DNA of 58,379 nt from Fibrobacterota bacterium. Its GTDB lineage: Bacteria; Fibrobacterota; Chitinivibrionia; Chitinivibrionales; FEN-1185. The notes beneath the pieces are model-generated. The model did no database searches. It was not told the origin of the DNA and worked only from the letters and a program-made list of their open reading frames with translations. A program made the position numbers and the translations under genes. Positions 718-25,991 of this stretch are shown piece by piece. Location: assembly GCA_003165595.1 (NCBI GenBank), contig PLWQ01000005.1, forward strand, positions 1 to 58,379, in the 5' to 3' direction. Within the stretch, counting starts at the first letter, position 1. Each line of letters opens with the position of its first letter.

Positions 718-1770
718 CTAAAAATGGTTAATGGATAAGCTGCGGCTATTATTCTTTTGATTTCTTGAAATTCCCAGCATTTCCTCCGCCCTCTCGTCCA
801 GATACGTCGCCAGCCCCCGCGGAATCCTCGCCATCATCCCCGCCTCGTTCCATACCTCCGGGCTTTCCATGCACAGGTACAGCGGAATGGCGTGGCCGCA
901 CTTGCCGATTTCCTCGCGGAGCGCGGAATAGAATTCCACCCGGATCGGCCGGTAGTACCTGATCTTTCCATCTTCGCCCTGCACCAACTCGCCCATCGCG
1001 AACAGGGGCAAATGGTCGCCGGTCTTCTTGAGCAGCGCCTTGAGCGCGGGCGACGAGCGGAAACCACCCAGGCTCCACCAGGCGATCCTTGACGTATCGG
1101 CAATCGCTTCGAAAATGCGCGCGACCACGCGGCGGTAATCCCGTTTCCATTCCGGGTACAGGAAGATCGGGTCAAAATGAAACGCGACCCAGAAGCCCAT
1201 GTCGAGGCAGCGTTGCGCCGCGGCGAGCCGGTCTTCAAGAAGCGCGGTGCCCTGCTCGAACGTCGAAATCATGCGCGGCGTATTCATGGAGAATCCAACG
1301 ACCACCTTGCGGGGATTCTGCACGGCGGCAAGACCGTCAACGTTCGTGCTCTTGGTCTTGAATTCCACCAGCACGTTCGGGTACGGCGCGAGCAGTTCGG
1401 CGATTTTCCGCGACAGATGAAGCTCGTTTTCCAGGAACAGACTGTCGCCGAACTCGCCGGTGCCGAACCGCACCACGCCGCTGCGGCGGGACAGTTTGTT
1501 GCGCACCTCGTCTTCCAAATCGGAGAAATTGTCAAAAACAATCTGACGTTGATTTTCGAGATAGGCTTGCAGGATGCAGTAGCGGCAGTACATGCCGCAG
1601 CCGGTAAGCGGGGTAAGGATCTGATAGCCGCAACAGAAATAGCCTTTCGTGGTGCCGGGGCACGGCTTCCAGAATTCGCCTTTGTGAAACTGGTGAACGA
1701 TCGCGCTGCGGGCTCCACCGGCCCCGCCGACCAGCGGCCTTGCGGGATGCGGCGCGGAATCGTCTTTCAC
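718..1770 (-). CDS. Spore photoproduct lyase-like radical SAM protein
   Basis: This 350-residue protein resembles the SPL family of radical SAM enzymes. The cluster motif CGMYCRYC (C-x3-C-x2-C) starts near residue 52, and an FGTGEFGDSL block and a KTKS block follow as in SPL-type TIM barrels. In Bacillus the prototype repairs 5-thyminyl-5,6-dihydrothymine in spore DNA, but no sporulation gene is seen here, so the substrate is unknown. The open frame runs much further upstream, but that part is out-of-frame sequence inside the ygiQ-like gene. I chose the GTG at 1768-1770 because it overlaps the ygiQ stop as GTGA, has GGGGAG about six bases upstream, and gives a normal family length. It sits between ygiQ and aroD in a tightly coupled operon. 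Confidence 0.85.
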   Translation of the reverse strand: MKDDSAPHPARPLVGGAGGARSAIVHQFHKGEFWKPCPGTTKGYFCCGYQILTPLTGCGMYCRYCILQAYLENQRQIVFDNFSDLEDEVRNKLSRRSGVVRFGTGEFGDSLFLENELHLSRKIAELLAPYPNVLVEFKTKSTNVDGLAAVQNPRKVVVGFSMNTPRMISTFEQGTALLEDRLAAAQRCLDMGFWVAFHFDPIFLYPEWKRDYRRVVARIFEAIADTSRIAWWSLGGFRSSPALKALLKKTGDHLPLFAMGELVQGEDGKIRYYRPIRVEFYSALREEIGKCGHAIPLYLCMESPEVWNEAGMMARIPRGLATYLDERAEEMLGISRNQKNNSRSLSINHF

Positions 1771-3536
1771 CGCCGTGCTCCCCGGCGGTCGTGGTGCAAA
1801 CGAGGCTGCTGGTCCTGCCACCACATGATGAGATCCTTCTGATGCCGCACCTCGCTCAGTTTTACCGTAACCGGGACCTTCTTTCCCGTGAACGGATCTT
1901 CTCCGGTTGCATACATCGAGCACGACACGGTCATGGGAATCGGAATGTATTCCTGCACGTTGCGGGCCTTGATGCCCCTGCGCCTGAGGTACTCGCCCAG
2001 TTCGCGGGCGTCGCTCTGCGTGCTGCCGGGGTGGCCGGCGATAAAATACGGCACAAGGTACTGCTGCTTGCCGGCGCGCGCGCTCGCGCTTGCAAAGAGT
2101 TCCTCGAACCGCTGCCACCCCGTTTCTTCGGGTTTCCCCATTGCGAAAAGCACTGCCCGCGCCAGGTATTCCGGCGCGACCGACAATTGTCCGCCCGTGG
2201 CCTTCTTGGCGACAATCTCGATGATCTCGGGCCACAACAGCGCAAGGTCCATGCGCACCCCGGAGTTGATTGACACATGCTTTACCATGTCGAGCCCGCA
2301 CACGGCGCGAATGAGTTCTGCAAACGCCGACTGGCCGGTTTGCAGAAACGAGCACACCGAAGGCGCCAGGCAGCTCCGCCGCGTGCAGGGCTTGCCGTCC
2401 TTGGGCCGCCTGCACGAGAGGCTGAACATATTTGCCGTGGGACCGCCGAGATCCGACACGATTCCTTTCCAGCCGGGAAGCTGCGAACGCTTGCGAATTT
2501 CCCTCACCACCGAATCCTTGGACCGGCTCTGGATGATCTTCCCCTGGTGCGCGCCTAGGCCGCAGAAATTGCAACCGCCAAAGCAGCCGCGCACAACGGT
2601 CACGGAGTCCTTAATCTGCTCGTAGGCGGGAACCGCCTGCTTGTACGAAGGATGAGGGCGATACGAAAATGGCAGTTCGTAAATTCGGTCTATTTCCCCC
2701 TGAGTGAGCGGTTCGGCCGGTTTGTTGACCAGCACGCCGAGTGTACTGCATTCCTGCAGAAACGCAGCCTCGGGATTCTCGTAAAACAGTCTTGTCATTT
2801 GCGAAAACGCCGCGCGCGACTGCTGTATCTCTTCAAACGACGGCAACCGCACGAACCGTTGTTTCGGGTCGGCAGCGACGGCGTCGAGTGCGTTCTTTCC
2901 CAGCCTGACCGCGGTGCCGGGAATATCGAGCATGCCTCCTATGGGCTCCCCACGTTTGCAGCGCGCGACAATGGCGCGCAGCGGATGTTCGGCCATGCCG
3001 TAGGCCAGGAGATCGGCCTTTGCGTCGAGCAGTATCGGCTGACGGAGCGAGTCGGACCAGAAGTCGTAGTGCACAATCCTGCGCAGGCTCGCCTCCACGC
3101 CGCCGATCACGATCGGTGCGCCGCTAAACGCCTGGCGAAGCGCATTGCAATAGGCAATGGTTGCGCGCTGCGGCCGGACGCCCGCCCTGCCGCCGGGAAC
3201 ATACGGATCGTCGCTGCGCGGCTTCTTCTGGGCCGTAAACAGCGACAGCATCGAATCGACGTTCCCGGCAGTTACGCCGAAGAAGTACCGCGGAGCGCCC
3301 AGCGCCGTAAAATCGGCCGGGTTCTTTACATCAGGCATTGCAATGATGCCCACGGTGCAGCCGAGAGACTGCACATACCTGCCCACCATGGCCGCCCCGA
3401 ACGCCGGATGGTCTACGTAGGCATCGCCCGTCACGATGATGACGTCGAGTTGTTCGAGGCCGAGAGCCTGCATTTCTTCCCTGCTGGCGGGGAGAAACGC
3501 GGTATTGATTCCCGGTCTCTGAGGGATTTCTTCCAT
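1767..3536 (-). CDS. YgiQ-family (UPF0313) radical SAM protein
   Basis: This 589-residue protein belongs to the YgiQ/UPF0313 family. The N-terminal FLPASREEMQALG and VTGDAYVDHPAFG blocks are the family signature (cobalamin-binding-like Rossmann domain). The radical SAM motif CFGGCNFC (C-x3-C-x2-C) lies near residue 310, followed by a Cys-rich stretch (SCRRPKDGKPC, RRSC, SVCSF) and a C-terminal SAM-barrel half with VQEYIPIPMT. The biochemical role of the family is not established. The ATG at 3534-3536 is preferred because family members begin just before this signature. A TTG 96 bases upstream would add a non-conserved leader, and neither start has a good ribosome site. It is the first gene of the ygiQ/SPL-like/aroD operon. 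Confidence 0.9.
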   Translation of the reverse strand: MEEIPQRPGINTAFLPASREEMQALGLEQLDVIIVTGDAYVDHPAFGAAMVGRYVQSLGCTVGIIAMPDVKNPADFTALGAPRYFFGVTAGNVDSMLSLFTAQKKPRSDDPYVPGGRAGVRPQRATIAYCNALRQAFSGAPIVIGGVEASLRRIVHYDFWSDSLRQPILLDAKADLLAYGMAEHPLRAIVARCKRGEPIGGMLDIPGTAVRLGKNALDAVAADPKQRFVRLPSFEEIQQSRAAFSQMTRLFYENPEAAFLQECSTLGVLVNKPAEPLTQGEIDRIYELPFSYRPHPSYKQAVPAYEQIKDSVTVVRGCFGGCNFCGLGAHQGKIIQSRSKDSVVREIRKRSQLPGWKGIVSDLGGPTANMFSLSCRRPKDGKPCTRRSCLAPSVCSFLQTGQSAFAELIRAVCGLDMVKHVSINSGVRMDLALLWPEIIEIVAKKATGGQLSVAPEYLARAVLFAMGKPEETGWQRFEELFASASARAGKQQYLVPYFIAGHPGSTQSDARELGEYLRRRGIKARNVQEYIPIPMTVSCSMYATGEDPFTGKKVPVTVKLSEVRHQKDLIMWWQDQQPRLHHDRRGARR

Positions 3537-3849
3537 AAAATGAAAATTATGTGATTGCAGACCATAAGCGGATATGCTTCCGGGGCAAGGAGGAAATTGT
3601 TTTATAAGCCAGGCACGGATGCCGCCGCGCAAGATCTGACGGTAGTGGAAAAGCCCGCTCTCGAAACCGGGATATCCGGATTGTGTTTAACGCACTTTGG
3701 CGAGTGTTTCACATAAGTAAATCCAGGGCGTCATGTTCCTGGTGCTTCAATGATCGATTGCTGTTAGGTAATGCGCGCAGCGGAAAACAGTGCGGAGCAT
3801 TTTCTTTCTCCCGCCCCATGCAAAAAGTAGTTTTATTACGTACACAATC
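3537..3849. other. Divergent intergenic region, ygiQ-like / ferredoxin operon
   Basis: This 313-base stretch separates the minus-strand radical-SAM operon from the plus-strand ferredoxin operon and must hold both promoters. I see no convincing small gene, RNA or strong dyad in it. Confidence 0.5.
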
Positions 3850-4083
3850 ATGAAAAATCTTGTTCGAACTTCGGGCATCGTCATCTCAATTGCGCTGTGC
3901 ATAGCAGCTGCAACGCTTAAGTCGCATGTGAGCCCAACCCTCTGCGTGGGATGCGGCGACTGCGTGCGAATCTGCCCGGTGTCGGCCATCAGCCTGGTGC
4001 GCGGCAAAGCCGTCATCGACGCGGAAACCTGCATCGGCTGCAAGAGTTGCAACAGAATTTGTTCCTACGGAGCCGTGAGATGA
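3850..4083 (+). CDS. Signal-anchored 2[4Fe-4S] ferredoxin-like protein 1
   Basis: This 77-residue protein starts with a basic N-terminus (MKNLVRTSG) and one hydrophobic segment (about residues 10-24). A bacterial-type ferredoxin domain follows with two complete C-x2-C-x2-C-x3-C motifs: CVGCGDCVRICP and CIGCKSCNRIC. Such a domain carries electrons between redox partners. The positive-inside rule predicts N-in/C-out topology, putting the clusters on the periplasmic side, which is unusual because these clusters are normally loaded in the cytosol. The ATG at 3850 is chosen because the upstream in-frame extension has no signal-like character. Its stop overlaps the ATG of a paralogous ferredoxin gene (ATGA). 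Function is inferred from the motifs only. Confidence 0.85.
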   Translation: MKNLVRTSGIVISIALCIAAATLKSHVSPTLCVGCGDCVRICPVSAISLVRGKAVIDAETCIGCKSCNRICSYGAVR

Positions 4084-4352
4084 ACAAGACGGTGCGAACG
4101 CTCGGTCTGGCAATCGCCGTGGCGCTCGTGGCCGGTCTCGCGTGCGTCAAATCGCTGGAACAATCGCTTGGTCCCACCAAGGGCGCGTATCTGAGCGTTG
4201 ATCCCGGTTTGTGTTCAGGATGCCGGAAATGCGTTGCGGTGTGCAATGCCGACGCCATAACAATTGTTTCGAACAAGGCGGTGGTCGACCCGACAAAATG
4301 CATTCAGTGCTTTAAATGCGTTGACGCGTGCCCCTATGACGCGATTTATTGA
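4080..4352 (+). CDS. Signal-anchored 2[4Fe-4S] ferredoxin-like protein 2
   Basis: This 90-residue paralogue of the preceding gene has the same architecture. A basic N-terminus (MNKTVRTLG) and a hydrophobic segment (about residues 8-22) are followed by a roughly 20-residue linker and two C-x2-C-x2-C-x3-C motifs, CSGCRKCVAVCN and CIQCFKCVDACP. All eight cluster cysteines are present. One extra cysteine (GLACVKS) closes the hydrophobic segment but is not a good lipobox. The start overlaps the preceding stop as ATGA, so the two are translationally coupled and probably made in equal amounts. The predicted barrel gene begins about 20 bases downstream. A membrane-bound or periplasmic electron carrier is the likely role; the partner is unknown. 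Confidence 0.85.
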   Translation: MNKTVRTLGLAIAVALVAGLACVKSLEQSLGPTKGAYLSVDPGLCSGCRKCVAVCNADAITIVSNKAVVDPTKCIQCFKCVDACPYDAIY

Positions 4353-4373
4353 TTTACGAGAGAGATCCGCCGC

Positions 4374-5678
4374 ATGAGAAGCGCCGCATGTTGCTGGCTA
4401 TTCTTGCTCGCTCTGCGTGCATATTGCGGACAGGATATCGATCTGCGTTTCGGAGCGGTTGGCGGGGGAAAAAGCGCGGGTGACGGCAGCATCTCAAATT
4501 GGGCGCCTGCAGTTGAGCTTCACTATCGGTGCGCCGTACCCCTCTTGCAGTCTTTTTCCATTCTTTGCGGCGAAGAATTCCAAAGCTACAGCCGGGTTTC
4601 TTCCACCCTTCCCCTTCTCGAACTCAATTATCCCGTGAACTCGATAACGAGCGCGGGCATCGCATACAACGGATTCGGCACGATTCAACTGAGCGGGTTC
4701 TCGCACGTTCTTTCCCAGAGCGAACCCATACCTTTCCCTGTTGCAAAGCAGGAAAACAATTCCCCCCTGGCCGTCGGGAGCATCACCGAGCGGTTCAAAA
4801 ACGGGGCCGATCTATTTTTCGATGTGCCGTTATGGCGGTTCACGCTTACCGGAGATGCATTCTACAACAACCTGATATTTGATTACAGCCGTGACACCAT
4901 AATTTCGCGCGATACGATAAATCTCACCCGGCCCAACAGTCACGACGCCGATCTTTGGTGCAATGCCTCGTTGGCGTTTGACGTACTCGACAAAAAACTT
5001 TGGATCAAAGCCGCCGGCTTGTTCAAAGACGATTTGAACCCCTACCAGGGCTATAACATTACCGGCTATTTTCTCGGCGTGGAGGGTGAATCCAATATCT
5101 TCTGGAACACTCTTGCCGTAAGCGGTGATGCGTTTGCGCGATATATCGAAAGCGATATCATGGACCTCAAGCAGTACGGAGACAGATTCGGGACAACCGA
5201 GCATCTCAGGCTTGTTGCAAAGATCCCGTCCGGCTTTTATGTCAAAGGCGACTGTGCCTTCGAATCGGCGTTAACCATGAGGAAACTCAGGGCCGAACTT
5301 TCGCTCCGCAAGGTGTGGGTAAACCGGTACAGCGTTGAAGTCGGCGCCTGGACAACGGCCGGCGGGCTTTTCCCGCGGCAATGCGCCTACATTTCCTCCA
5401 CCATTGCTGTTACTCCGCGCGACATGCTGATTCCATCGGTCCGGGCATTTACGCACTGGAACGGATACTTTGTAAACGGCGATTCGACCATGACCCTGTA
5501 TCGTACCGATCTCGGGCTGTCGTTCCGCCACGATTTTCCTTTATCACCGGCATCCGTGCTAAAGAACCTTTCGTTCAATTGCGGGGCGCTGTACAGAAGG
5601 TTTACCGAAATGCCTGTTACCGTTATCATAAGCCCTCAAAATATTGACTTTTATGTGGGAGTGAGCGATTGGCTGTGA
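4374..5678 (+). CDS. Predicted outer-membrane beta-barrel protein
   Basis: This 434-residue protein has an N-terminal signal peptide (MRSAACCWLFLLALRAYC, cleavage probably before GQDIDL) and then a long series of alternating hydrophobic/polar segments rich in aromatic and Gly/Asn residues, as expected for a transmembrane beta barrel. The C-terminus (SDWL) is close to the aromatic/hydrophobic ending of barrels. I recognise no named family; it is clearly not a cytochrome, having no CxxCH. It lies between the exported ferredoxins and a lipoprotein whose GTG start overlaps its stop. In that setting it could be the outer-membrane channel of an electron-transfer or sensing complex. That role is inference from context. 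Confidence 0.6.
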   Translation: MRSAACCWLFLLALRAYCGQDIDLRFGAVGGGKSAGDGSISNWAPAVELHYRCAVPLLQSFSILCGEEFQSYSRVSSTLPLLELNYPVNSITSAGIAYNGFGTIQLSGFSHVLSQSEPIPFPVAKQENNSPLAVGSITERFKNGADLFFDVPLWRFTLTGDAFYNNLIFDYSRDTIISRDTINLTRPNSHDADLWCNASLAFDVLDKKLWIKAAGLFKDDLNPYQGYNITGYFLGVEGESNIFWNTLAVSGDAFARYIESDIMDLKQYGDRFGTTEHLRLVAKIPSGFYVKGDCAFESALTMRKLRAELSLRKVWVNRYSVEVGAWTTAGGLFPRQCAYISSTIAVTPRDMLIPSVRAFTHWNGYFVNGDSTMTLYRTDLGLSFRHDFPLSPASVLKNLSFNCGALYRRFTEMPVTVIISPQNIDFYVGVSDWL

Positions 5679-6247
5679 AAGCAACGAACTCAGGAAAGAA
5701 CCTCAACCTTAGGCCCTGCGGCGTGCATGGAAAAGTCGCAGCCCGGGCGTTTTGCATGATGCTTGCCTCCGGCATCGCGCTGGTCGGCTGCGGCGATTCG
5801 TTTGTCGATTCATTCAATAAAGCTCCGCCGCCAGGCGTCGTCGTTCTGCACCCACCCCACCCGACAAGCACCTGGATTGACTCCATAAACCCGACCGACG
5901 GGACAACAAGTGCGACCCTGTGCGTCACCGGCGGCTGGGTAAGCTCAACCGAATGCTCACTTTACATATTCTTGAAATATTGCGACGGAACTACCCGGAT
6001 ACGGCTGGGAACGGATTCAAATAGTTATACTCTGACCAAGGGCTATCTTACGGATACGCCCTATTGTCCGGACTCCACGGCTACATTTGTCCACTTGACC
6101 TACGTCTATTCCGGACTTACCCCAGCCAAGAAGTACTACCTGAACATCATGGGGTACTGGGGCATAGCCCAGCCCTGGCAATTGGACGGCAGTTTCACCA
6201 CACGGCCGGATTCTTCCTTGGACACATTATCGAAGAGGGGACCTTGA
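5675..6247 (+). CDS. Lipoprotein with a fibronectin-III-like domain
   Basis: This roughly 190-residue secreted protein has an N-terminal hydrophobic stretch ending in a lipobox (ALVGC), so it is probably lipidated at the Cys near residue 40. The mature part begins with a short Pro-rich spacer and continues as one beta-sandwich-like domain (WIDSINPTDG, VYSGLTPAKKYYLNI) resembling fibronectin type III modules. The preferred start is the GTG at 5675-5677, which overlaps the barrel stop as GTGA. A TTG six bases upstream has a better-spaced GGAG and cannot be excluded. The long basic segment before the hydrophobic stretch is unusual for a lipoprotein signal. It probably works with the preceding barrel or the following DUF2271 protein. 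Confidence 0.65.
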   Translation: MKATNSGKNLNLRPCGVHGKVAARAFCMMLASGIALVGCGDSFVDSFNKAPPPGVVVLHPPHPTSTWIDSINPTDGTTSATLCVTGGWVSSTECSLYIFLKYCDGTTRIRLGTDSNSYTLTKGYLTDTPYCPDSTATFVHLTYVYSGLTPAKKYYLNIMGYWGIAQPWQLDGSFTTRPDSSLDTLSKRGP

Positions 6248-6251
6248 AATT

Positions 6252-7055
6252 ATGAACTACTCGCTCTTTGCCCGGTACGCGGCCTTATGCTGCATGTGGT
6301 TGACTGCCACCTGCACCATGGGGCCAAAGGTGCGGGACGGCGGCATAATCACAACAAACGCGAATGCGCAGGGGAACAAGATCACCGTCAGGTTCACCCG
6401 AGGAAGCAATTTCGCCAATGCCAAGCAATTCCTGTTTGGAAAGTTCACCATTACCCCGCAAATCGCGGTATGGGCCGAAGACACTCAGGGACGGTATCTT
6501 CAGACGCTCTATGTGACGCGGAAGTTCGCAAAGCAGGATTGGGGAATTATGCTGCACAACAAGGACAGTTGTTTCCGGACCAGCTCGCTTCCCTACTGGC
6601 TCAACAAGTACGTTCACGCGGGAAACGCCGCTCCCACGACCAACAAGCCGCTCCCGGACGCCGTCACCGCGGCGACGCCGACCGGTTCATTCGACATCAA
6701 CACCATGCTCAATACCCCGGCGTTGCCCGTGGTGATCTGCGTGGAGATCAACAGCTCGTTCGACTACAACAGCGCATTTGGCCCCAAGCGGAAAGCATCC
6801 TCAATCAACGGGCAACCCGCTGTGGTGTACAAGGCCCGCGCGGGGGAAAATCTTCGGCTGTACCCCGTTGTTTCGATGAAGCTGGCCGGCCACAGCGGCG
6901 AAACCGGCGCGGATTCTCTCTTGTATAAAGACGTCTCGGGGCTCACCACCGCACAAAACATTTTCAGTTGCATCAACGTGCTGATGCATGTTTCCGTGTC
7001 GCCCGCTGGCGATTCGATCGATCGGACGGGCGCTACGCCCCTGTCCGCGCGTTGA
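6252..7055 (+). CDS. Exported DUF2271-family protein with flavinylation-like motif
   Basis: This 267-residue protein has a short signal peptide and then matches what I know of DUF2271: PQIAVWAEDTQGRYLQTLYV (about residues 69-88), a PYW block near 115, EINSSFDYN near 165-173, GQPAVVYKA near 188-196, and a C-terminal LTTAQNIF. DUF2271 genes often occur with ApbE and other extracytosolic redox genes. Residues 136-142 read DAVTAAT followed by PTGSF, which fits the D-x-x-(S/T)-x-A-(S/T) pattern where ApbE attaches FMN to a Thr or Ser, although Ala replaces the usual Gly. It is the last gene of the ferredoxin/barrel/lipoprotein operon. Family call is fairly good; flavinylation is a hypothesis. Confidence 0.7.
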   Translation: MNYSLFARYAALCCMWLTATCTMGPKVRDGGIITTNANAQGNKITVRFTRGSNFANAKQFLFGKFTITPQIAVWAEDTQGRYLQTLYVTRKFAKQDWGIMLHNKDSCFRTSSLPYWLNKYVHAGNAAPTTNKPLPDAVTAATPTGSFDINTMLNTPALPVVICVEINSSFDYNSAFGPKRKASSINGQPAVVYKARAGENLRLYPVVSMKLAGHSGETGADSLLYKDVSGLTTAQNIFSCINVLMHVSVSPAGDSIDRTGATPLSAR

Positions 7056-7129
7056 GAGTTGACCGCGGCGTGTCTGGCCTGTAAAGTTGTTGCGTTTTAG
7101 CCGCCTGCCGCCGGTCGCGCCGAAACGCA

Positions 7130-7164
7130 GAGAGCCCGCGACGGTTTCCCGCGCGGGCCCTCTC
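7130..7164. terminator. Probable bidirectional hairpin between convergent genes
   Basis: The arms GAGAGCCCGCG and CGCGGGCCCTCTC pair with a two-base bulge between the stops of the DUF2271 gene and the di-heme oxidoreductase gene. There is no clear T run, so an intrinsic terminator is only likely. Confidence 0.4.
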
Positions 7165-7191
7165 GCTAACCAGGTGGGCCTTGAAACTGTC

Positions 7192-9987
7192 TTACTTCAT
7201 CACAAGAAGGTCTTTCTTGTAGAGCCTGCCTTCGGCCTGAACCGTGGCGAAGTATTTCCCCGCTCCGCATCTCGAAGTATTCCAGGTCACGGCCGACTGG
7301 CCCAAACCCAGAACCTGCGAGAACACGCGTTTCCCCTGCATGTTGTAAATCGACACGACGATCCTGTCGCCCCGTGTACCCACAATGTTCTGGAGCCGCA
7401 ACGTTGCGACGCTCCGGATCGGGTTAGGATAGCACATGAGAGATGGAATTGCGCCGGCCTTCACAATCGCTGCACCCTGCACGCCTCTCACCGCGGTGGA
7501 CATTGCATTCTTTGCCAGGCGGTCCGCAAAAGGTAACTGGGTGTAACGGATAAGGTCTGCCCGTTGCTGGGCAGTCATGTTGATAAACTTGTTTCGTGAA
7601 TAGGTTCCCTCGCCGAAATGCCAGAGAATGGCTTCCGCAATACCTCGTGCCCTTCCATCGTGCATGAGGAGTGCAACTTTGTTCGAATAGGTATAATACA
7701 GCTCTCCCCAAAGTGGAGACGTACGCCAATCGCTCGGCCCGGCAAGGCCCGATACATATCCATTGGCCGCTCCGCCGGTATCACTTTCTTCCGGTCCCAT
7801 GTCATGTATCAGCATGTCGGTGAATGGCTGGATTTCGAGATTCTTGAGTTCATTGAAATCGGTTTTTGTTCCGGTCCTTATAGCGGGAATATGGCAAAGA
7901 TCACATTTGGCGTCGGCAAACAACGCCTTGCCGCGGATGGCGGAAGGATCTGTCCATATTTCTTCAAATGCTTGTCCTTTGTAAAGATTTCCGCTGAGCC
8001 ATATCGCTCCACCTTGGGTAGCATCCGCTATAGAGGGATCGAAAATGATGTAGCCCTTTCCCAATTGTCGCGGAGGAGGGGCCAAAAGAGAAATGTACGT
8101 TCGCAAAGTGTCCATGACCGGCACCGACATCTCCGGAGGATTGGCGTTGTCGGTCATATATGGTTCATTAGCGAAGTACATGTTCGAAACGCCCACATCC
8201 CCTGCAACGGAAGCATAAACTTCAGTCTTGAGGTTTGCAACGTCTGCTTTCCAGCCGAATCTGCCGAGCGAACTGGGTCCGGTGAAACCATCGTCGACAC
8301 GGTTCGCCTTTCCCGCTATACCGGTGCCGGCCTTTCCGGGCAGATCAACAAAGGAAAGGATGGTGCTTTCGTCAATCGCCTCCAGCATTCCCAAGCCAGT
8401 GAGGTTGATAATGTAGCGGGGTGAAATCCTGACCTTGGAAAGGTCTATGGAGGTCACGCCCCAACCGAGATTGCTAAAGGAATAGTGCGGCTTGCGAAGC
8501 ATGAAGGGCGTACCGTCGGCATACTGTCCCGGAACCGAATCCCATGTCACGTTAAGCTGGCCCTGGGGCACGGCAGGCGGTGTGGCAGATGTTTCGAGAG
8601 AACCACCGAATACGGGATGGCCGCCAAGGGAGCCATCAGGATTTACGACTTCGAAAGGTGTAAACAAACCATGTTTGATGTTGGGGTCGCTTCCAACCAT
8701 ATCATCGGGATATCCTTTGCCGTCCTCGAAATGGCAAACGAAACAGGCTGCCTTCCTGTAAATGGGTCCGCGCATGGTCGGCTTGAAGAATGGGCTATGC
8801 GTAGTATCCGGAAAACTATTGGGCGAACCGTTGCAGTCGAACGGTGTAGCATAATTGTACACCATGCCGGTTCCCCAGTCCGTGTCAAAAAGAGCTTTTC
8901 CCTTCATGAAATCGGACGATCTGCCGGGCCCTGCATTTTGTACGTGCTGTGAAAACGCGAACTCGGGAAAGGTAACCGTATTGATTGAGGCATCGCCCGC
9001 AGGATTCGCCCAGGGATGCTGGAATTTGTGGCTTATTTTTCCAAGCCCGATGTAATAACGCTGGGGTTCGGAATAATAAAGTTGGCCGTCGGAGAGAGAT
9101 CTGGCAGCAGACAGTTCGTAGTCGATGTATTGGCCATAACTGAGGCCTCGAATCATCCAGACGTACCAACGTATCTGCGGGAACTGGGTATTTGTCCACG
9201 TCGCCTGAAAAGGCTCTACGGTCTGGCCAAAGTACGGAATGTTGGCGGGTCCCATGAATCCGGTTCCGTCGATGCTTGCGTCACCGGAGCCTTGGTTATC
9301 CGAATACGTATCGTGGTCGCAGAGTGTGTCATAACCGGACATTCCGAAGAACCTGCCATTCGACCAGTTGGTTGCTTCGCTGGGGAAGAGAACAACCAGT
9401 AAGGAGTCACCCCAATCCGCGAGTTTGTAGTTGAGAGCCGTGCTCTGGAAGTAATTCCCGGAAAAATGGTCGAAGCGCCATTCGTCTTCGTGCCTGTTGC
9501 GGTAGCGTTCGCTTCCCTCGATTACCAGAGGCCATTTCGGCATGGGTTCGAACCCTTGGCCCATAACATAGGTAAACCACTTGGTGTCGGTCGTGTTCGT
9601 GCACTGGTGAGAAGGAATCCAGGCGTAAAAGCTCTGGGGTTGACCCACCCAATGTTGGGTGAAGAAGTAATCGATGGTATCGCCCTGTATGGCGTCAATT
9701 GCGTACGTAAAGGTGTTTGCGGAAACATGGGTCATGGCCATGGTGTTGCAACTCTGGCCATGCGTGTTGTTGATCCACGTCACGTCTGCCGAAAGAAGAT
9801 ACGGTCCGGCCTGCGGTGTCTCCGTAAGCTGAGGACTGTAGGTGAGTGTTAATTTTCCTGAAGTTGTGGTTGCATCCTGCTTCTGGGTAAAGTAAAAGAT
9901 GTTCGGAAAATTGGCCATTGCAGTGGACCAGAGTCCAAAGATTGCCATTGCGACGATCATCATGACCGGAAGCCGTCTTACTCTCAT
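7192..9987 (-). CDS. Secreted di-heme oxidoreductase (DUF1111/DHOR type) with type IX-like C-terminal domain
   Basis: This 931-residue protein has a signal peptide (cleavage near residue 25). A roughly 330-residue N-terminal beta-rich region precedes a di-heme oxidoreductase region with two c-type heme sites, CFVCH at 415-419 and CDLCH at 695-699. Family landmarks are PFTDMLIHDMGP near 721 and HDGRARGIAEAILWH near 776. The last 80 residues (from CYPNPIRSV, ending in KKDLLVMK) look like a type IX secretion/sorting domain, so the protein is probably moved to the cell surface. DHOR proteins are putative peroxidase or electron-transfer enzymes; the substrate is unknown. The start ATG follows an eight-G tract acting as the ribosome site. 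It is transcribed toward the ferredoxin operon, convergently. Confidence 0.85.
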   Translation of the reverse strand: MRVRRLPVMMIVAMAIFGLWSTAMANFPNIFYFTQKQDATTTSGKLTLTYSPQLTETPQAGPYLLSADVTWINNTHGQSCNTMAMTHVSANTFTYAIDAIQGDTIDYFFTQHWVGQPQSFYAWIPSHQCTNTTDTKWFTYVMGQGFEPMPKWPLVIEGSERYRNRHEDEWRFDHFSGNYFQSTALNYKLADWGDSLLVVLFPSEATNWSNGRFFGMSGYDTLCDHDTYSDNQGSGDASIDGTGFMGPANIPYFGQTVEPFQATWTNTQFPQIRWYVWMIRGLSYGQYIDYELSAARSLSDGQLYYSEPQRYYIGLGKISHKFQHPWANPAGDASINTVTFPEFAFSQHVQNAGPGRSSDFMKGKALFDTDWGTGMVYNYATPFDCNGSPNSFPDTTHSPFFKPTMRGPIYRKAACFVCHFEDGKGYPDDMVGSDPNIKHGLFTPFEVVNPDGSLGGHPVFGGSLETSATPPAVPQGQLNVTWDSVPGQYADGTPFMLRKPHYSFSNLGWGVTSIDLSKVRISPRYIINLTGLGMLEAIDESTILSFVDLPGKAGTGIAGKANRVDDGFTGPSSLGRFGWKADVANLKTEVYASVAGDVGVSNMYFANEPYMTDNANPPEMSVPVMDTLRTYISLLAPPPRQLGKGYIIFDPSIADATQGGAIWLSGNLYKGQAFEEIWTDPSAIRGKALFADAKCDLCHIPAIRTGTKTDFNELKNLEIQPFTDMLIHDMGPEESDTGGAANGYVSGLAGPSDWRTSPLWGELYYTYSNKVALLMHDGRARGIAEAILWHFGEGTYSRNKFINMTAQQRADLIRYTQLPFADRLAKNAMSTAVRGVQGAAIVKAGAIPSLMCYPNPIRSVATLRLQNIVGTRGDRIVVSIYNMQGKRVFSQVLGLGQSAVTWNTSRCGAGKYFATVQAEGRLYKKDLLVMK

Positions 9988-14207: not shown

Positions 14208-14552
14208 ATGTTTTCAAAGAAGAAACGGAAGACAAAGCGAATCCACCTGGTGTATTACCTCCTTGTTTTCGACAGGGAGACCGACGACCTTGTGGGCCAT
14301 GTCGTGGACATCACCACCGGCGGCATGAAACTGATGGGCACAAAAGCCCTGCGGCCGGACACCATCTATCATTTGCGGATGCTCCTGCCCGACGATGCCG
14401 GCGGCAGCAGACCGGTAAATCTCGACGCCCGCTGCATTTGGCTCACGCAGAACATGTTTTCGGACTTCTGGGGAACGGGCTTTGCGTTTACGGACATTCC
14501 TGACAACGACATCGCGGCCATCTCCGGCCTTATTGACAAATTCGGATACTAG
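14208..14552 (+). CDS. PilZ-domain protein
   Basis: This 114-residue cytosolic protein consists of a single PilZ domain, which typically binds cyclic di-GMP. A basic Lys/Arg-rich N-terminus (KKKRKTKRIHL) supplies the arginine part of the binding motif, and DITTGGMKLMG near residue 38 corresponds to the D/N-x-S-x-x-G part with Thr in place of Ser. The RxxxR half is not perfect, so ligand affinity is uncertain. AAAGGA sits six bases before the ATG. It precedes a lone receiver-domain gene on the same strand by about 115 bases. The 250 bases upstream contain nothing I recognise. Confidence 0.8.
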   Translation: MFSKKKRKTKRIHLVYYLLVFDRETDDLVGHVVDITTGGMKLMGTKALRPDTIYHLRMLLPDDAGGSRPVNLDARCIWLTQNMFSDFWGTGFAFTDIPDNDIAAISGLIDKFGY

Positions 14553-14668: not shown

Positions 14669-15046
14669 ATGAAGAAAATCCTTGTAATCGACGACGACGC
14701 AGCGCTTCGCGAAGTAATGAAAACGGTGCTGTCCGGTTCCTATGAGGTCAAAGAGGCGGGAACGAAAGCAGAAGGACTTTCCGTAGTGGCAAAATTCAGG
14801 CCCGATCTCGTCATCCTCGACGTGATGATGGAATCGGTGAAGGCCGGGTTCGAAGCGGCGCGAGAGATTCGCGTCAATAAGAAGTTCAAGAATGTCAAGA
14901 TCCTGATGATAACCAACGTGGACAAGGAAATGCAGATCGACTACAAGTCGGAGGCGGGTGACGCGGACTGGTTGCCGGTAGACGGCTACCTCCAGAAGCC
15001 TGTTGAGCCCAAGACCCTGCTTGCCAGGGTCCGGCAGCTTCTATAG
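14669..15046 (+). CDS. Single-domain response regulator (receiver only)
   Basis: This 125-residue CheY-like receiver has the acidic pocket DDD near residue 8, the phospho-acceptor Asp in VILDVMM near residue 51, a switch Thr in ITNVD and the conserved Lys in LQKPVEP. No output domain is present, so it signals by protein contact. The ATG at 14669 is chosen because it starts directly at KKILVIDDD and has AAGGAA about seven bases upstream. An ATG 36 bases earlier would add a non-conserved leader. It is convergent with the histidine-kinase/flavoprotein fusion, and the two stop codons lie in the same CTATAG palindrome. That kinase is the obvious candidate partner, though they are not co-transcribed. 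Confidence 0.9.
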   Translation: MKKILVIDDDAALREVMKTVLSGSYEVKEAGTKAEGLSVVAKFRPDLVILDVMMESVKAGFEAAREIRVNKKFKNVKILMITNVDKEMQIDYKSEAGDADWLPVDGYLQKPVEPKTLLARVRQLL

Positions 15047-17467
15047 CGCGGAACCGGCGGCGGGGCGCGGTCGGACGGCGGCGTTGCTCCAGAACACATA
15101 GCCACCCTCCAGGATCGAAATTTTCCCATATCCCCTGGTAACAAGGAAGCGATAGGCTTCGTAGGCTCGCGACGAAGTCCTGCTGTACAACACGCACGCG
15201 TCCTTCTTGCCAAACGGGATTCCTTCACGCCGCAGGTTTTCCAGAGGAACGCTTACGCTGCCCGGGATCGAGTTCACCACATGCTCCGAAAAGGGCGAAA
15301 CGTCCACCAGGTGAACACTCCCTCGTCTGGGTATGAGCTCGGCGGGAGTGACGGTTCGCACGAACCCCTCCATTTTTGCCGCCAGCACGCAGCAGGCGGT
15401 CTGAACGATATCGATAGGGTTGTTGAACGCCGGCGAATACCCGAGATCGAGTCCGAAGACTTCGGTGAGCGTGAGCGAGCGCATGATTGCCGACGCTGCT
15501 ATCTGGATTTGCCTCACGACGTCTCCCCTGCCAAAGGCCTGCGCCCCCAGCACCCTTTTCGTTGTCGCATCCGCCACGAGCTTGAAGGCGACGTATTCGG
15601 CATTTCTGGAATAGTGCGCTTTGTCAAGGCCGGTGACAACCGCCGATACGGCCCCAAACCCATGGTTGCGGGCGCTTGCGAGCGTGAGTCCGGTGCGGGC
15701 TATTGAGACGCCGAAGTTCTGAAACATGGTGGTGCCGATGGATCCGAGGTACTCCGACGTCCGGCCTCCGATGTTGTCGGCCGCGATCCTTCCCATTTTG
15801 GTGGAGACCGACCCGAGCGGCCAGTACTCATGTTTTCCCGTAATGCAGTTGACGGTTTCCGCGCAGTCTCCGATGGCATAAATATTCGGGTCGTTGGTTT
15901 GCAACCGCGAATTCACTCTTATGGCGCCTCGCGGGCTCACCGGGATTCCGGCACGCTTCGCCAGTTTGGAATTCGGCCGCACCCCGGCCGACACGATAAC
16001 AAGGTCCGCCGCAAAACCGCCGACGTTCGTGAAAAGGACCAGCCGCCCGTCCTTTCGCCCTATGCGCGAAATGTCGACGCGGGTGGCGACCTTGATGCCT
16101 TTTCCGTTGAGCGCATCCTGGATTTTCTCGGAAATGTCTTCGTCGAATAACGACGAAAGCACGTAAGGTTTCTTTTCCAGTATGGTAACACGCGCGCCGG
16201 CATCCACCAGCGATTCAGCGGTTTCCATGCCGACGAGGCCTCCTCCGATAATGTAAACGTCCCGGGCGTTCTTCGATGTGCATTCCTTTCGTATTGCCTC
16301 GGCGTCTTCCATCCCGTGCAGTGAATAAATGCCGTGACGGGTGATGCCCGGAATGGCCGGCACATACGATTCTCCGCCTGTCGCCAAAACGAGCACATCG
16401 TAGCCAAGCTCTCGCATTTCACGTGTGGCAAGATCTCGAGCCCGAACCGTTTTCCTTGCCCTGTTTATAGAGACCGCCTCGGTCCTGCTCAGAACGTGAA
16501 TGTTCTTGATGGATTCGAAAAAGTTGATGTCGCGAACCGTGTTGTCTGCGGTCGACATGAGTGATCTTGGCGAATGCACTTTGTCGCTGATGTACGACGG
16601 CAGGCCGCACCCGGCATACGACAAGAAATCGCTCTTCTCCACTATGGTGATGTCGCATCTCTCGTCGAGGCGGCGCAGGCGCGCCGCGGCCTTGGGGCCC
16701 GCCGTGACCCCGCCGACAATGACAACGCGCCTTCTCTGAACGCCTCGGCGCGCCTGCTTATGTACGCCCCGGCAGGGCAGCGTCACGCGAAAGGATGTGC
16801 CCTTTCCCTCTTTCGATGTGACGGAAATGGTGCCCTCGTGCGAGTCGACGATCGCCTTGGAAATTGCCAGACCCAGCCCGGTGCCCGCCGCCGTCGCCTT
16901 GAGCTGCGCAGACCGAAAAAACGGTGTAAAGATGGCGCCGAGATCGCCTGCGGCAATCCCGGGCCCGGAATCCGTTATCTGCAAAATGCATGTGCCGGCA
17001 CGCGCCGAAACGCCAAGCTTGACAATAACAAATCCGCCCTGCGGCGTGTACTTGACCGCATTCTCCACCACGTTGCGTACCATAATCGCCAGACCGCGGC
17101 TGTTTGCGTGCACCATGATCGCCGTGCCTGCGGGAATCCTGACCCTCAGCGACACGTTCTTGTCGGAGGCCTCCGCGGCAAACGAATATGCCTCCGTTTC
17201 AACAAGGGCGGCGAGATCGATTTCCTCTTTATCAATTTTCCCTCCCGGGGAAAACGCCTGGTAGTTGAGCAGGTCGGCAATGAGCATGCTTGCCTCTCCG
17301 GCCTTGCGAATCGCCCGGTCCACGAATTGAAGGGTCTGCGCGTTCGTTTCCCCGGTGAATCCGTCCAAAACAGTCTTGAGAAGGGACTGTATGGTGGTAA
17401 GGGGGGACTTGAGCTGATGCGAGAGTGTTCCAACGAGTTCGCCGCCGAGGACAACGGGGTTCTGCAT
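15041..17467 (-). CDS. Histidine kinase fused to CoA-disulfide-reductase-like flavoprotein and rhodanese domain
   Basis: This 808-residue soluble protein joins three modules. Residues 1-235 form a complete kinase core: H box SHQLKSPLTT (His17), N box NVVENAVKYTP (132-142), G1 DSGPGI, and G2 GTGLGLAISK. Residues 246-695 form a pyridine-nucleotide disulfide oxidoreductase of the CoA-disulfide/persulfide reductase type: FAD motif VVIVGGVTAGPKAA, active Cys287 in SYAGCGLPS, NAD motif IIGGGLVGME (407-416), and YAIGDCAE. Residues 706-798 form a rhodanese fold whose usual catalytic Cys position reads YSRTSSR, so it is probably inactive. Only about ten residues precede the H box and no membrane segment exists, so the redox half is the likely sensor. 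Confidence 0.9.
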   Translation of the reverse strand: MQNPVVLGGELVGTLSHQLKSPLTTIQSLLKTVLDGFTGETNAQTLQFVDRAIRKAGEASMLIADLLNYQAFSPGGKIDKEEIDLAALVETEAYSFAAEASDKNVSLRVRIPAGTAIMVHANSRGLAIMVRNVVENAVKYTPQGGFVIVKLGVSARAGTCILQITDSGPGIAAGDLGAIFTPFFRSAQLKATAAGTGLGLAISKAIVDSHEGTISVTSKEGKGTSFRVTLPCRGVHKQARRGVQRRRVVIVGGVTAGPKAAARLRRLDERCDITIVEKSDFLSYAGCGLPSYISDKVHSPRSLMSTADNTVRDINFFESIKNIHVLSRTEAVSINRARKTVRARDLATREMRELGYDVLVLATGGESYVPAIPGITRHGIYSLHGMEDAEAIRKECTSKNARDVYIIGGGLVGMETAESLVDAGARVTILEKKPYVLSSLFDEDISEKIQDALNGKGIKVATRVDISRIGRKDGRLVLFTNVGGFAADLVIVSAGVRPNSKLAKRAGIPVSPRGAIRVNSRLQTNDPNIYAIGDCAETVNCITGKHEYWPLGSVSTKMGRIAADNIGGRTSEYLGSIGTTMFQNFGVSIARTGLTLASARNHGFGAVSAVVTGLDKAHYSRNAEYVAFKLVADATTKRVLGAQAFGRGDVVRQIQIAASAIMRSLTLTEVFGLDLGYSPAFNNPIDIVQTACCVLAAKMEGFVRTVTPAELIPRRGSVHLVDVSPFSEHVVNSIPGSVSVPLENLRREGIPFGKKDACVLYSRTSSRAYEAYRFLVTRGYGKISILEGGYVFWSNAAVRPRPAAGSAL

Positions 17468-24254: not shown

Positions 24255-24611
24255 TTACTTAAGCGCCGCGATGGCTTCGTCGACCTCGTCATAGATTTCC
24301 AGAAGCGTCGTGGCGCCGATGATTTCGATTATTTCGTAGACGTTCTCGTTCACATTGGCTATCTTGAAACTGCCGTTCTTCTCCTTGGCCGATTTGCTGA
24401 AGTGCAGCAGGATGCCCAGCCCGGTGCTATTGACATAGCGAAGTTTTTTGAAATCGGCGATGATATTGATGAAGCCGTCGTTGAAGAGATTGCAAATCTT
24501 CTCCAACACCGTTTCCACGTTTGTGGCATCGAGATCGCCGACAAACCTCACCATCTTGGTGTCGGCATGCCCTTTGATGTCTTCGTATTCAAGTTCAATC
24601 TGAGACTCCAT
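24255..24611 (-). CDS. STAS-domain anti-sigma-factor antagonist
   Basis: This 118-residue protein is a single STAS domain (MVRFVGDLDATNVETV, ADFKKLRYVNSTGLGILL). The Ser of VNSTGLG, near residue 63, is the position phosphorylated in SpoIIAA/RsbV proteins. It would bind and neutralise a partner HATPase when unphosphorylated. The ATG at 24611 is preferred because AAGAGGA lies six bases upstream. An ATG two codons earlier overlaps the preceding stop as ATGA but has no SD spacing. It is directly coupled to the STAS-HATPase fusion gene, which is its likely partner. Confidence 0.85.
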   Translation of the reverse strand: MESQIELEYEDIKGHADTKMVRFVGDLDATNVETVLEKICNLFNDGFINIIADFKKLRYVNSTGLGILLHFSKSAKEKNGSFKIANVNENVYEIIEIIGATTLLEIYDEVDEAIAALK

Positions 24612-24613
24612 AC

Positions 24614-25408
24614 TCATTCCTCTCTTAATTTGGTAACATGCACCGATGTGCCATCGCCGGAAAAGTTGATATCGAGCTTGTTTGAAAGCATCTTGATGAG
24701 CGCAAGTCCGCGGCCCCGTTTTTGACCCAATTTGGCATCCGGCGTCTTAGGCATGGATGTCGACAGAGCCCGAAGGGCATCGATTTTGTCCGGATCGCTT
24801 GCGTTGATCACTTCAAGCTCGATCTTCTCGCGGTCGATCTTGATATTGAGGTCGATGTTCTTCTTGAGCCGCTCGGATCCGTGCTCAACGGCATTGTTAC
24901 ACACTTCGTCCACAATGGTTTCGATCCGGAACGAATCGCGATTGGTGTAGCCCTTCTGGCGCGCGATGCGGCTCACCATTTGTCTTACGGGCGGCACGAA
25001 TTGCAATTCCGGAGGAAACGACATCCAGACCATTTCCGATTTGCGTTCCACTTCCCAGTGGTACGCGTTTACAGCGGTGCGCAATTCGTTGTAAAATTTG
25101 AATATCTTGGTGGCGCCCATTGCGCTCAGTTTCGACTTGATGTCGAGGCTCACACCGGTGATCACAAGATCGCCGCCGCGTTCCACCAGAAGTTGCCTGC
25201 ACCCCATGAGCTGCCCGATAGCGGCCGACGAAACCTGCGTAACGCCGGACATTTCGGCAACAAGAAAATTCTGCTTCGACTCTAGAACCGAATCGAATTC
25301 CCTGTGAATGTACCCGATGCTTTCCGCATCCAGGGGACCTTCGATCTTCCACATGGTTAGATCGGGTCTCAGATCAAGGGGCTTTCTCTGGATTTTCAGA
25401 TCTGGCAT
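24614..25408 (-). CDS. STAS domain fused to an anti-sigma HATPase domain
   Basis: This roughly 264-residue protein has an N-terminal STAS domain (LTMWKIEGPLDAESIGYI, VTQVSSAAIGQLMGC near residue 60) and a C-terminal GHKL HATPase of the RsbW/SpoIIAB type (ETIVDEVCNNAVEHGS near 172, GQKRGRGLALIKMLSNKL near 230). RsbW-type enzymes are serine kinases that phosphorylate STAS partners. Having both modules in one chain suggests built-in or intramolecular switching. The ATG at 25408 is chosen because it starts the folded part; a GTG 45 bases upstream adds a basic leader. The neighbours are a separate HATPase upstream and a separate STAS downstream, overlapping by a few bases. Confidence 0.85.
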   Translation of the reverse strand: MPDLKIQRKPLDLRPDLTMWKIEGPLDAESIGYIHREFDSVLESKQNFLVAEMSGVTQVSSAAIGQLMGCRQLLVERGGDLVITGVSLDIKSKLSAMGATKIFKFYNELRTAVNAYHWEVERKSEMVWMSFPPELQFVPPVRQMVSRIARQKGYTNRDSFRIETIVDEVCNNAVEHGSERLKKNIDLNIKIDREKIELEVINASDPDKIDALRALSTSMPKTPDAKLGQKRGRGLALIKMLSNKLDINFSGDGTSVHVTKLREE

Positions 25409-25493
25409 ATGCGGGTTCCGATTCCTTTTCTGCTGCTTTGCCTGTGTCCGCACAACGTGAATGTATTGTCAAATCCCGGAAACAAGACTCCTG

Positions 25494-25958
25494 CTAGGCA
25501 TCTTCCCGTTTCCGCACAACCCGCACGGTTGTCATGTTGTCCTCGCCCACTTCCATTTTGATCTCTTCCGACAGGAGCCGCACGATCTCCAGACCCAGGC
25601 CCCGGGATTCCTTTTCCTGCGAGGCATCGGCGAGACGCGCGTCCGATTTCTTCATCGCATGCTTGAGCCGCTCGATATCGTCCCTTTTACCGCCCTGGTC
25701 GTTTACCTGGAATTCAAAACGATCCGAAAAAACCTTGCATTCGATTTCTACGGTCGCGTCGACGGTGCGTGAGCCGTGAATTATTGCATTATGGCAAATT
25801 TCGTCTACGATTACTTCGGAGCGATACGCAAATTTCGGAGAGAACTTGTTCACGGCAAGCGTCTCGGCCACGAATTTCCTCACCGGCGAAACATAGTCGA
25901 GGTCCGAAGGGAACTTCACTTTGAAAACATAGGGAGTTTGGGTATCCATAGAAAACAT
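25494..25958 (-). CDS. Anti-sigma regulatory HATPase (RsbW-like)
   Basis: This roughly 154-residue protein is a GHKL-type ATPase of the anti-sigma family: N box EVIVDEICHNAIIHGS near residue 50 and G2 region ESRGLGLEIVRLLSEE near 118. Family members bind a sigma factor or other target and phosphorylate a STAS antagonist. No sigma factor or PP2C phosphatase is encoded in the operon. I chose the ATG at 25958, which has AAGGA four bases upstream; an ATG nine bases further in is also possible. It is the second gene of the operon beginning at 26327. Confidence 0.85.
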   Translation of the reverse strand: MFSMDTQTPYVFKVKFPSDLDYVSPVRKFVAETLAVNKFSPKFAYRSEVIVDEICHNAIIHGSRTVDATVEIECKVFSDRFEFQVNDQGGKRDDIERLKHAMKKSDARLADASQEKESRGLGLEIVRLLSEEIKMEVGEDNMTTVRVVRKREDA

Positions 25959-25991
25959 CAAGTCCTTTTCCTGGGCCGACAACTACACGAT

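Follow-up and report, generated by a model that had tools for sequence, protein, structure and literature searches.

The window, a 58,379-nucleotide stretch of DNA from a Fibrobacterota bacterium, contains a minus-strand gene predicted to encode a histidine kinase fused to a flavoprotein disulfide reductase and a rhodanese. A convergent gene for a receiver-only response regulator overlaps its stop codon. The features considered here are the following:

15041–17467, minus strand: HisKA–HATPase_c–(FAD/NAD disulfide reductase)–rhodanese fusion gene, 808 aa, a single ORF with Pfam-defined domains and counterparts at 23 further loci
17258–17440, minus strand: HisKA dimerization/phosphoacceptor domain, residues 10–70 (Pfam 2.5e-8; 34.3 bits against a cut-off of 26.9)
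16772–17101, minus strand: HATPase_c catalytic domain, residues 123–232 (Pfam 6.9e-27; 94.5 bits against a cut-off of 26.4)
16730–16771, minus strand: linker from kinase to flavoenzyme, residues 233–246, short and variable
15848–16729, minus strand: FAD/NAD-binding domain of CoADR/Npsr type, residues 247–540 (Pyr_redox_2, 7.5e-62)
15422–15709, minus strand: flavoenzyme dimerization domain, residues 587–682, with Tyr619 and Tyr677 (Pyr_redox_dim, 2e-11)
15083–15325, minus strand: rhodanese domain, residues 715–795, with Ser762 (15182–15184) at the catalytic Cys position (Pfam 1.9e-12)
14669–15046, plus strand: receiver-only response regulator (Pfam Response_reg, 1.6e-18)

The frame of the fusion gene is open throughout, and all five of its domains (HisKA, HATPase_c, Pyr_redox_2, Pyr_redox_dim, and Rhodanese) scored above the Pfam curated cut-offs. 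An initial sequence-only reading of this DNA had described one soluble 808-residue chain carrying kinase, flavoprotein, and rhodanese, with the H box close to the N terminus and no other sensor domain, and each of these points was borne out. From stop to stop the frame spans 823 aa and leaves at most 15 residues N-terminal to the annotated start; the H box is therefore truly N-terminal, and the frame has no room for a hidden sensor ahead of it. A Pfam search of the whole chain returned no PAS, GAF, or other sensor family. A frameshift or missed stop near residues 235–246, which had been named as the sign of two separate genes, is excluded: the junction is open in over 20 independent loci representing several phyla, with no stop or frameshift at residues 233–246 in any aligned fused relative.

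Fusion of such an enzyme to a kinase had been judged rare, and the searches agree. A pattern scan of approximately 85,000 species genomes, which needed exact peptide matches, recovered at least four full-length relatives: two in Spirochaetes MAGs (51 and 49% identity), one in a proteobacterial MAG (36%), and one in an Acidobacteria MAG (34%). Targeted flavoenzyme profile searches of approximately 1,000 genomes added approximately 20 more. These searches covered 168 genomes of the window's own phylum (five with fused genes), 393 sampled from Spirochaetota, 71 from the class of the proteobacterial match, and 347 sampled from the phylum of the Acidobacteria match. A kinase profile split the flavoenzyme ORFs cleanly into those with a strong N-terminal kinase and those with none. 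The 24 fused loci found come from Fibrobacterota-like, Spirochaetota, Acidobacteriota, and proteobacterial genomes; 23 were scored for active sites and 21 entered the alignment. Among the best 5000 plasmid records, none covers 80% of the query and no fused copy was seen. Homologues thus exist; many characterized ones had been named as grounds for refutation, but none was found characterized. Literature searches, with most subscription papers outside their coverage, found no paper on a kinase combined with CoA-disulfide reductase and rhodanese, and nothing relevant on the joining of a kinase to an oxidoreductase of this type or on an NADH-sensing kinase. The fusion represents a genuine and rare family.

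The fusions divide into three well-supported groups on the flavoenzyme tree: group A combines the window's phylum with Spirochaetota, group B is made up of Spirochaetota, and group C joins Acidobacteriota to the proteobacterial class. One tree placed all fused rows on one side of a branch with support 76, and the fusion state needs two changes on a tree built without the rhodanese. Constraining all fusions to one clade was not rejected by either the flavoenzyme (p-AU 0.54) or the kinase (p-AU 0.85), so that both data sets are compatible with a single fusion origin without demonstrating it. One Spirochaetota genome (G168) encodes two different kinase–flavoenzyme fusions (L009 and L154), each with another kinase and a receiver gene nearby.

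The kinase core is intact, as first described. His17 (17417–17419) lies in the motif HQLKSPL, and all fused relatives that include the N terminus retain the phosphoacceptor His. The N box (135–139), DSGPG (166–170), and GTGLGL (195–200) follow, and N136, D166, G168, G170, G195, T196, G197, and G199 are invariant across the 21 aligned fusions, which extend down to 33% identity. A phosphoacceptor His and an HATPase_c domain with N, G1, and G2 boxes place the protein among HisKA-type kinases by sequence. A group B copy (L162) has an in-frame stop within the H box at approximately position 5430 (HQM*SPL), and its longest ORF starts past the phosphoacceptor; this is either a sequencing error or a decaying copy.

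The flavoenzyme is likewise complete. It carries an FAD motif (GGVTAG, 252–257), an NAD motif (GGGLVG, 408–413), and GDCAE (533–537), and the predicted catalytic Cys287 (16607–16609) lies within GCGLP (286–290). The complete FAD/NAD disulfide reductase claimed at the outset is therefore present, and its Cys is found in 23/23 scored fusions. The 21 aligned sequences show no variation in either dinucleotide motif, at Cys287, or at Glu431. Glu431 occupies the NAD ribose position, and its equivalent in AfNpsr (Npsr/NoxA-3 of Archaeoglobus fulgidus), Glu183, contributes to NADH preference (PMC7969121). Tyr619 and Tyr677 both align with Tyr in AfNpsr and are 58 residues apart; in S. aureus CoADR, Tyr361 and Tyr419 (so named in the titles of PDB mutant entries) have this same spacing. 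The FAD and NAD motifs, the dimerization domain, and a single active-site Cys in a C-G-x-P context assign this part to the CoADR/Npsr flavoenzymes. The narrower label of CoA-disulfide/persulfide reductase stood in part: the domain is nearer the Npsr branch than the classical CoA-disulfide reductases, and it scored 360.4 bits against the 578.8-bit cut-off of TIGR03385, the NCBI equivalog for CoA-disulfide reductase.

The rhodanese tail tells a different story. Its site motif, YSRTSS (761–766), places Ser762 opposite the Cys both in the columns of 60 homologues and in the AfNpsr alignment, confirming the substitution reported by the sequence-only reading. The degenerate site also recurs: the Cys is lost in 19 of 23 scored fusions versus 1 of 38 unfused relatives and kept in 4/23 versus 37/38, giving a Fisher p of 5e-11 that ignores relatedness; an independent-pairs test had too few pairs. 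Where the Cys is lost, Ser, Asp, Gly, or Glu takes its place; the four fusions that retain it are members of clade B. At least five state changes are required on the tree built without the rhodanese, which makes repeated decay of the site probable. Loss of the rhodanese center with retention of the flavin/Cys center leaves a clear evolutionary trace of the proposed conversion of an enzyme to a sensor. In AfNpsr, sulfur is proposed to be accepted first by Cys519 of the rhodanese, from which it passes to CoA and then to Cys42 (PMC7969121). A rhodanese with such a Cys is part of what defines an Npsr; the window's protein has Ser762 in its place. Unfused reductase–rhodanese proteins in the phylum of the Acidobacteria match (L143–L148) come close to some fusions in score (approximately 700 bits); they keep the rhodanese Cys and would make good enzymatic controls.

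An AlphaFold2 model built with the 21 aligned fusions (pLDDT 84.7, pTM 0.67) contains two long N-terminal helices (4–34 and 43–72) and the ATPase domain, and its nonkinase part superposes on A. fulgidus Npsr (6pfz; TM 0.94 of the target) and on CoADR-Rhd of Bacillus anthracis (3icr). These are the closest PDB matches by fold, and 6pfz is also the closest by sequence (E 8.7e-99, 34% identity). Confidence is low at residues 190–194 and at 239–243 in the linker, and the arrangement of kinase and flavoenzyme is not fixed at this pTM.

The candidate partner regulator, which the sequence-only reading had overlooked, recurs with the fusion. In the window its ORF is open from 14633, and the likely start is the Met of MKKILVIDDD at 14669. 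A receiver gene also lies beside the fusion in G001 and G027, and one ORF intervenes in G041. With the G027 receiver as a query, the best receiver in the window's genome (G000), G001, and G041 was the fusion neighbor (62, 61, and 54% identity, respectively), and other receivers in these genomes were at most 44% identical. Receivers also adjoin the fusion in Spirochaetota of group A (L157 and L158), in group B (L160), and in group C (L156 and L167). A candidate cognate regulator, orthologous in the genomes tested, is thus adjacent in 9 of 24 fused loci spanning all three clades, versus 0 of 14 unfused controls; the Acidobacteriota loci and most of those in clade B lack it as a neighbor, some of these loci being on short contigs. 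No output domain was found in any fusion-adjacent receiver. These receivers have in common the stretch D-[IV]-M-M, with G-[FL] a few residues further on; most receivers have D-x-x-[ML]-P at this point. The common stretch suggests that they may form one co-evolving partner family. Directly before the window's receiver gene is a PilZ-domain protein (14208–14552, plus strand). Two genes from the regulator is a DsbD_2-type membrane protein (PF13386; 12913–13959, plus strand) with a CLATCGP motif and, at its C terminus, approximately 130 additional residues without a match to any family.

Genes for NiFe hydrogenase, Mrp antiporter, Rnf/NQR, or NuoEF adjoin 8 of 24 fused loci versus 0 of 14 unfused loci (Fisher p 0.017), and a receiver or an energy module is adjacent in 15/24 versus 0/14 (Fisher p 1e-4), with related loci counted as independent in both tests. 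The controls were 14 unfused relatives examined by the same method, and neither an energy module nor a receiver was found near any of them in stretches of mostly 20 kb. Many fused loci are on short contigs, and their neighbor counts are therefore lower bounds. In L156/L011, NuoE/F-like genes, hydrogenase small and large subunits, and a protease-like ORF precede the fusion in that order. In L160, the regulator lies between the fusion and a group 3 sulfhydrogenase-like NiFe hydrogenase with an NAD-binding subunit. L154/L171 contain Mrp subunits, a HycI maturation protease, a subunit resembling sulfhydrogenase gamma, and a NuoD-like large subunit that has both CxxC motifs and matches PF00374. Mrp antiporter subunits are immediately upstream of the fusion in L162, L164, and L166. 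Rnf/NQR-type genes occur in L155 and L170, together with NuoE/F in L155, and one locus beyond these eight (L159) has the nickel regulator gene nikR beside the fusion. Upstream of the L155 fusion and beside Rnf (1353–7376), the NuoE/F-like genes are interleaved with genes for CBS-like, PHP-domain, and HATPase-domain proteins and for a short 2Fe-2S/4Fe-4S protein that has no hydrogenase domain.

The window copy itself has no hydrogenase or NADH module adjacent. Its nearest metabolic gene encodes formate-THF ligase, which is also near the fusion in a genome of the same genus, and NiFe hydrogenases are encoded elsewhere in the window's genome. Taken across loci, the genomic context supports a connection to NADH/H2 metabolism. 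The window also encodes a 931-aa di-haem oxidoreductase (DHOR, PF06537; 7192–9987, minus strand) with CxxCH-like motifs and a Por secretion tail, probably a type IX-secreted cytochrome peroxidase-like protein. At 24255–25982 on the minus strand, two HATPase-like ORFs of one cluster (C20; 279 and 162 aa) lie next to a 120-aa STAS-like ORF and, judged by eye, are possible partner-switching regulators.

From these features, we consider it reasonably probable that the chain works as a soluble kinase in which a C-terminal sensor derived from an enzyme monitors NADH/thiol redox state, and that its signal goes to the adjacent receiver-only regulator. We infer the enzyme's role as sensor, the NADH/thiol signal, the direction of signaling, and the target alike. 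In the proposed mechanism, NADH would reduce FAD and, through it, the Cys287 center, which is probably a Cys-S-S-CoA mixed disulfide as in relatives; a disulfide, O2, or another oxidant would re-oxidize it. The kinase helices and the flavoenzyme are both dimeric, so that the state of the flavoenzyme dimer, whether redox or ligand-bound, could determine where the tethered ATPase domains sit with respect to His17 and thereby switch autophosphorylation. The phosphoryl group would go to the neighboring regulator (14669–15046), which has no DNA-binding domain and may consequently act by phosphorelay or protein contact, and the output would plausibly adjust hydrogenase, Rnf/NQR, or Mrp-linked NADH and ferredoxin metabolism. 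The rhodanese, lacking a sulfur-accepting Cys, is probably a lid or structural tail. Retention of the flavin/Cys center with loss of the sulfur entry site points to NADH and thiol/disulfide redox, rather than persulfide, as the sensed quantity. The sequence-only reading had offered NADH, CoA-disulfide, and persulfide as inputs; the NADH and CoA/thiol parts fit better, and persulfide is the least likely, since the sulfane-sulfur-accepting Cys of characterized Npsr enzymes (PMC7969121) is missing. The position of the proposed sensor counts against this model to some extent: most kinases carry the sensor before the HisKA helices, and one placed after the ATPase domain is unusual.

Conservation of the flavoenzyme Cys in 23/23 fusions is also what would be expected under selection for turnover. 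The protein could then be bifunctional, with a working NADH-dependent disulfide/persulfide reductase as the effector and the kinase controlling it or merely co-localized. The kinase-free paralogue in the same genome (L002, C22) cuts both ways: it lends this explanation some support, but it also means that an ordinary reductase–rhodanese is already encoded there. The fused version, moreover, no longer has the sulfur-accepting Cys, and the conservation of a receiver-only regulator beside it points to a signal output, making an effector role unlikely.

Enzyme-derived sensors often lose catalysis, and here the rhodanese part is already without its catalytic Cys. The flavoenzyme dimer might similarly serve only for NAD(H)/CoA binding or kinase dimerization and carry out no Cys chemistry. 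In a pure scaffold, loss of Cys287 and the flavin motifs would be expected; these are instead invariant in 23 members from three clades, despite repeated decay of the rhodanese Cys, and this explanation is accordingly more doubtful than a bifunctional protein. Sensing of sulfane sulfur (persulfide or polysulfide) draws on the best relative by both sequence and fold being an NADH persulfide reductase, AfNpsr, which reduces persulfides and polysulfide (PMC7969121). However, the Cys that would first accept sulfur is absent from 19/23 fusions, including the window's, which makes persulfide sensing through the rhodanese unlikely. The neighbors are hydrogen/NADH genes and not sulfur-respiration genes, although the L160 hydrogenase is sulfhydrogenase-like. 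A sulfane-sulfur sensor is on balance improbable. An assembly or sequencing artefact joining two genes has a negligible probability and is ruled out by the same junction occurring in one ORF at more than 20 independent loci in several phyla, with no point found in its favor.

The favored reading, a kinase with an NADH/thiol sensor derived from an enzyme, bears on a poorly understood subject, the input of NADH/NAD+ or thiol redox state into bacterial two-component signaling. A soluble kinase joined to an enzyme of known chemistry is a system open to purification and direct test, and the gene neighbors propose a concrete target in hydrogen and NADH metabolism. More tentatively, the family might represent an unrecognized, widespread two-component class in which a near-intact metabolic flavoenzyme placed after the kinase serves as NADH/thiol sensor and a dedicated receiver-only regulator tunes hydrogenase and NADH–ferredoxin modules in several phyla; we rate this as conceivable but somewhat short of probable.

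Compared with known systems, the kinase core resembles those of PnpS, WalK, and PhoR in its HisKA and HATPase_c domains and intact H, N, G1, and G2 boxes. Unlike that type, the fusion lacks PAS, GAF, HAMP, and transmembrane parts as well as any N-terminal sensor, and its candidate input module, an enzyme, follows the ATPase domain. In this layout it resembles CheA, a soluble kinase with a regulatory domain after the ATPase domain and an output that includes a receiver-only protein. CheA differs in its phosphoacceptor domain and receptor coupling, and its regulatory domain is the SH3-like P5 and not an enzyme. Residues 247–793 align end to end with 6pfz and 3icr, with which the fusion has in common the FAD/NAD domains, the catalytic Cys, two active-site Tyr residues, and a rhodanese tail; a segment aligned with AfNpsr loop 60–66 is also present. 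It differs from both in the added N-terminal histidine kinase, the Ser in place of the rhodanese Cys, and gene neighborhoods with regulators and hydrogen/NADH modules. L002 has the same flavoenzyme–rhodanese core (33% identity); in contrast to the fusion, it has no kinase, keeps the rhodanese Cys, and belongs to a different tree branch, and it has extra C-terminal segments that by eye are TusA- and DsrE-like. The fusion is thus a variant of two-component systems made of known modules, in a combination and order for which no description was found and which recurs across phyla.
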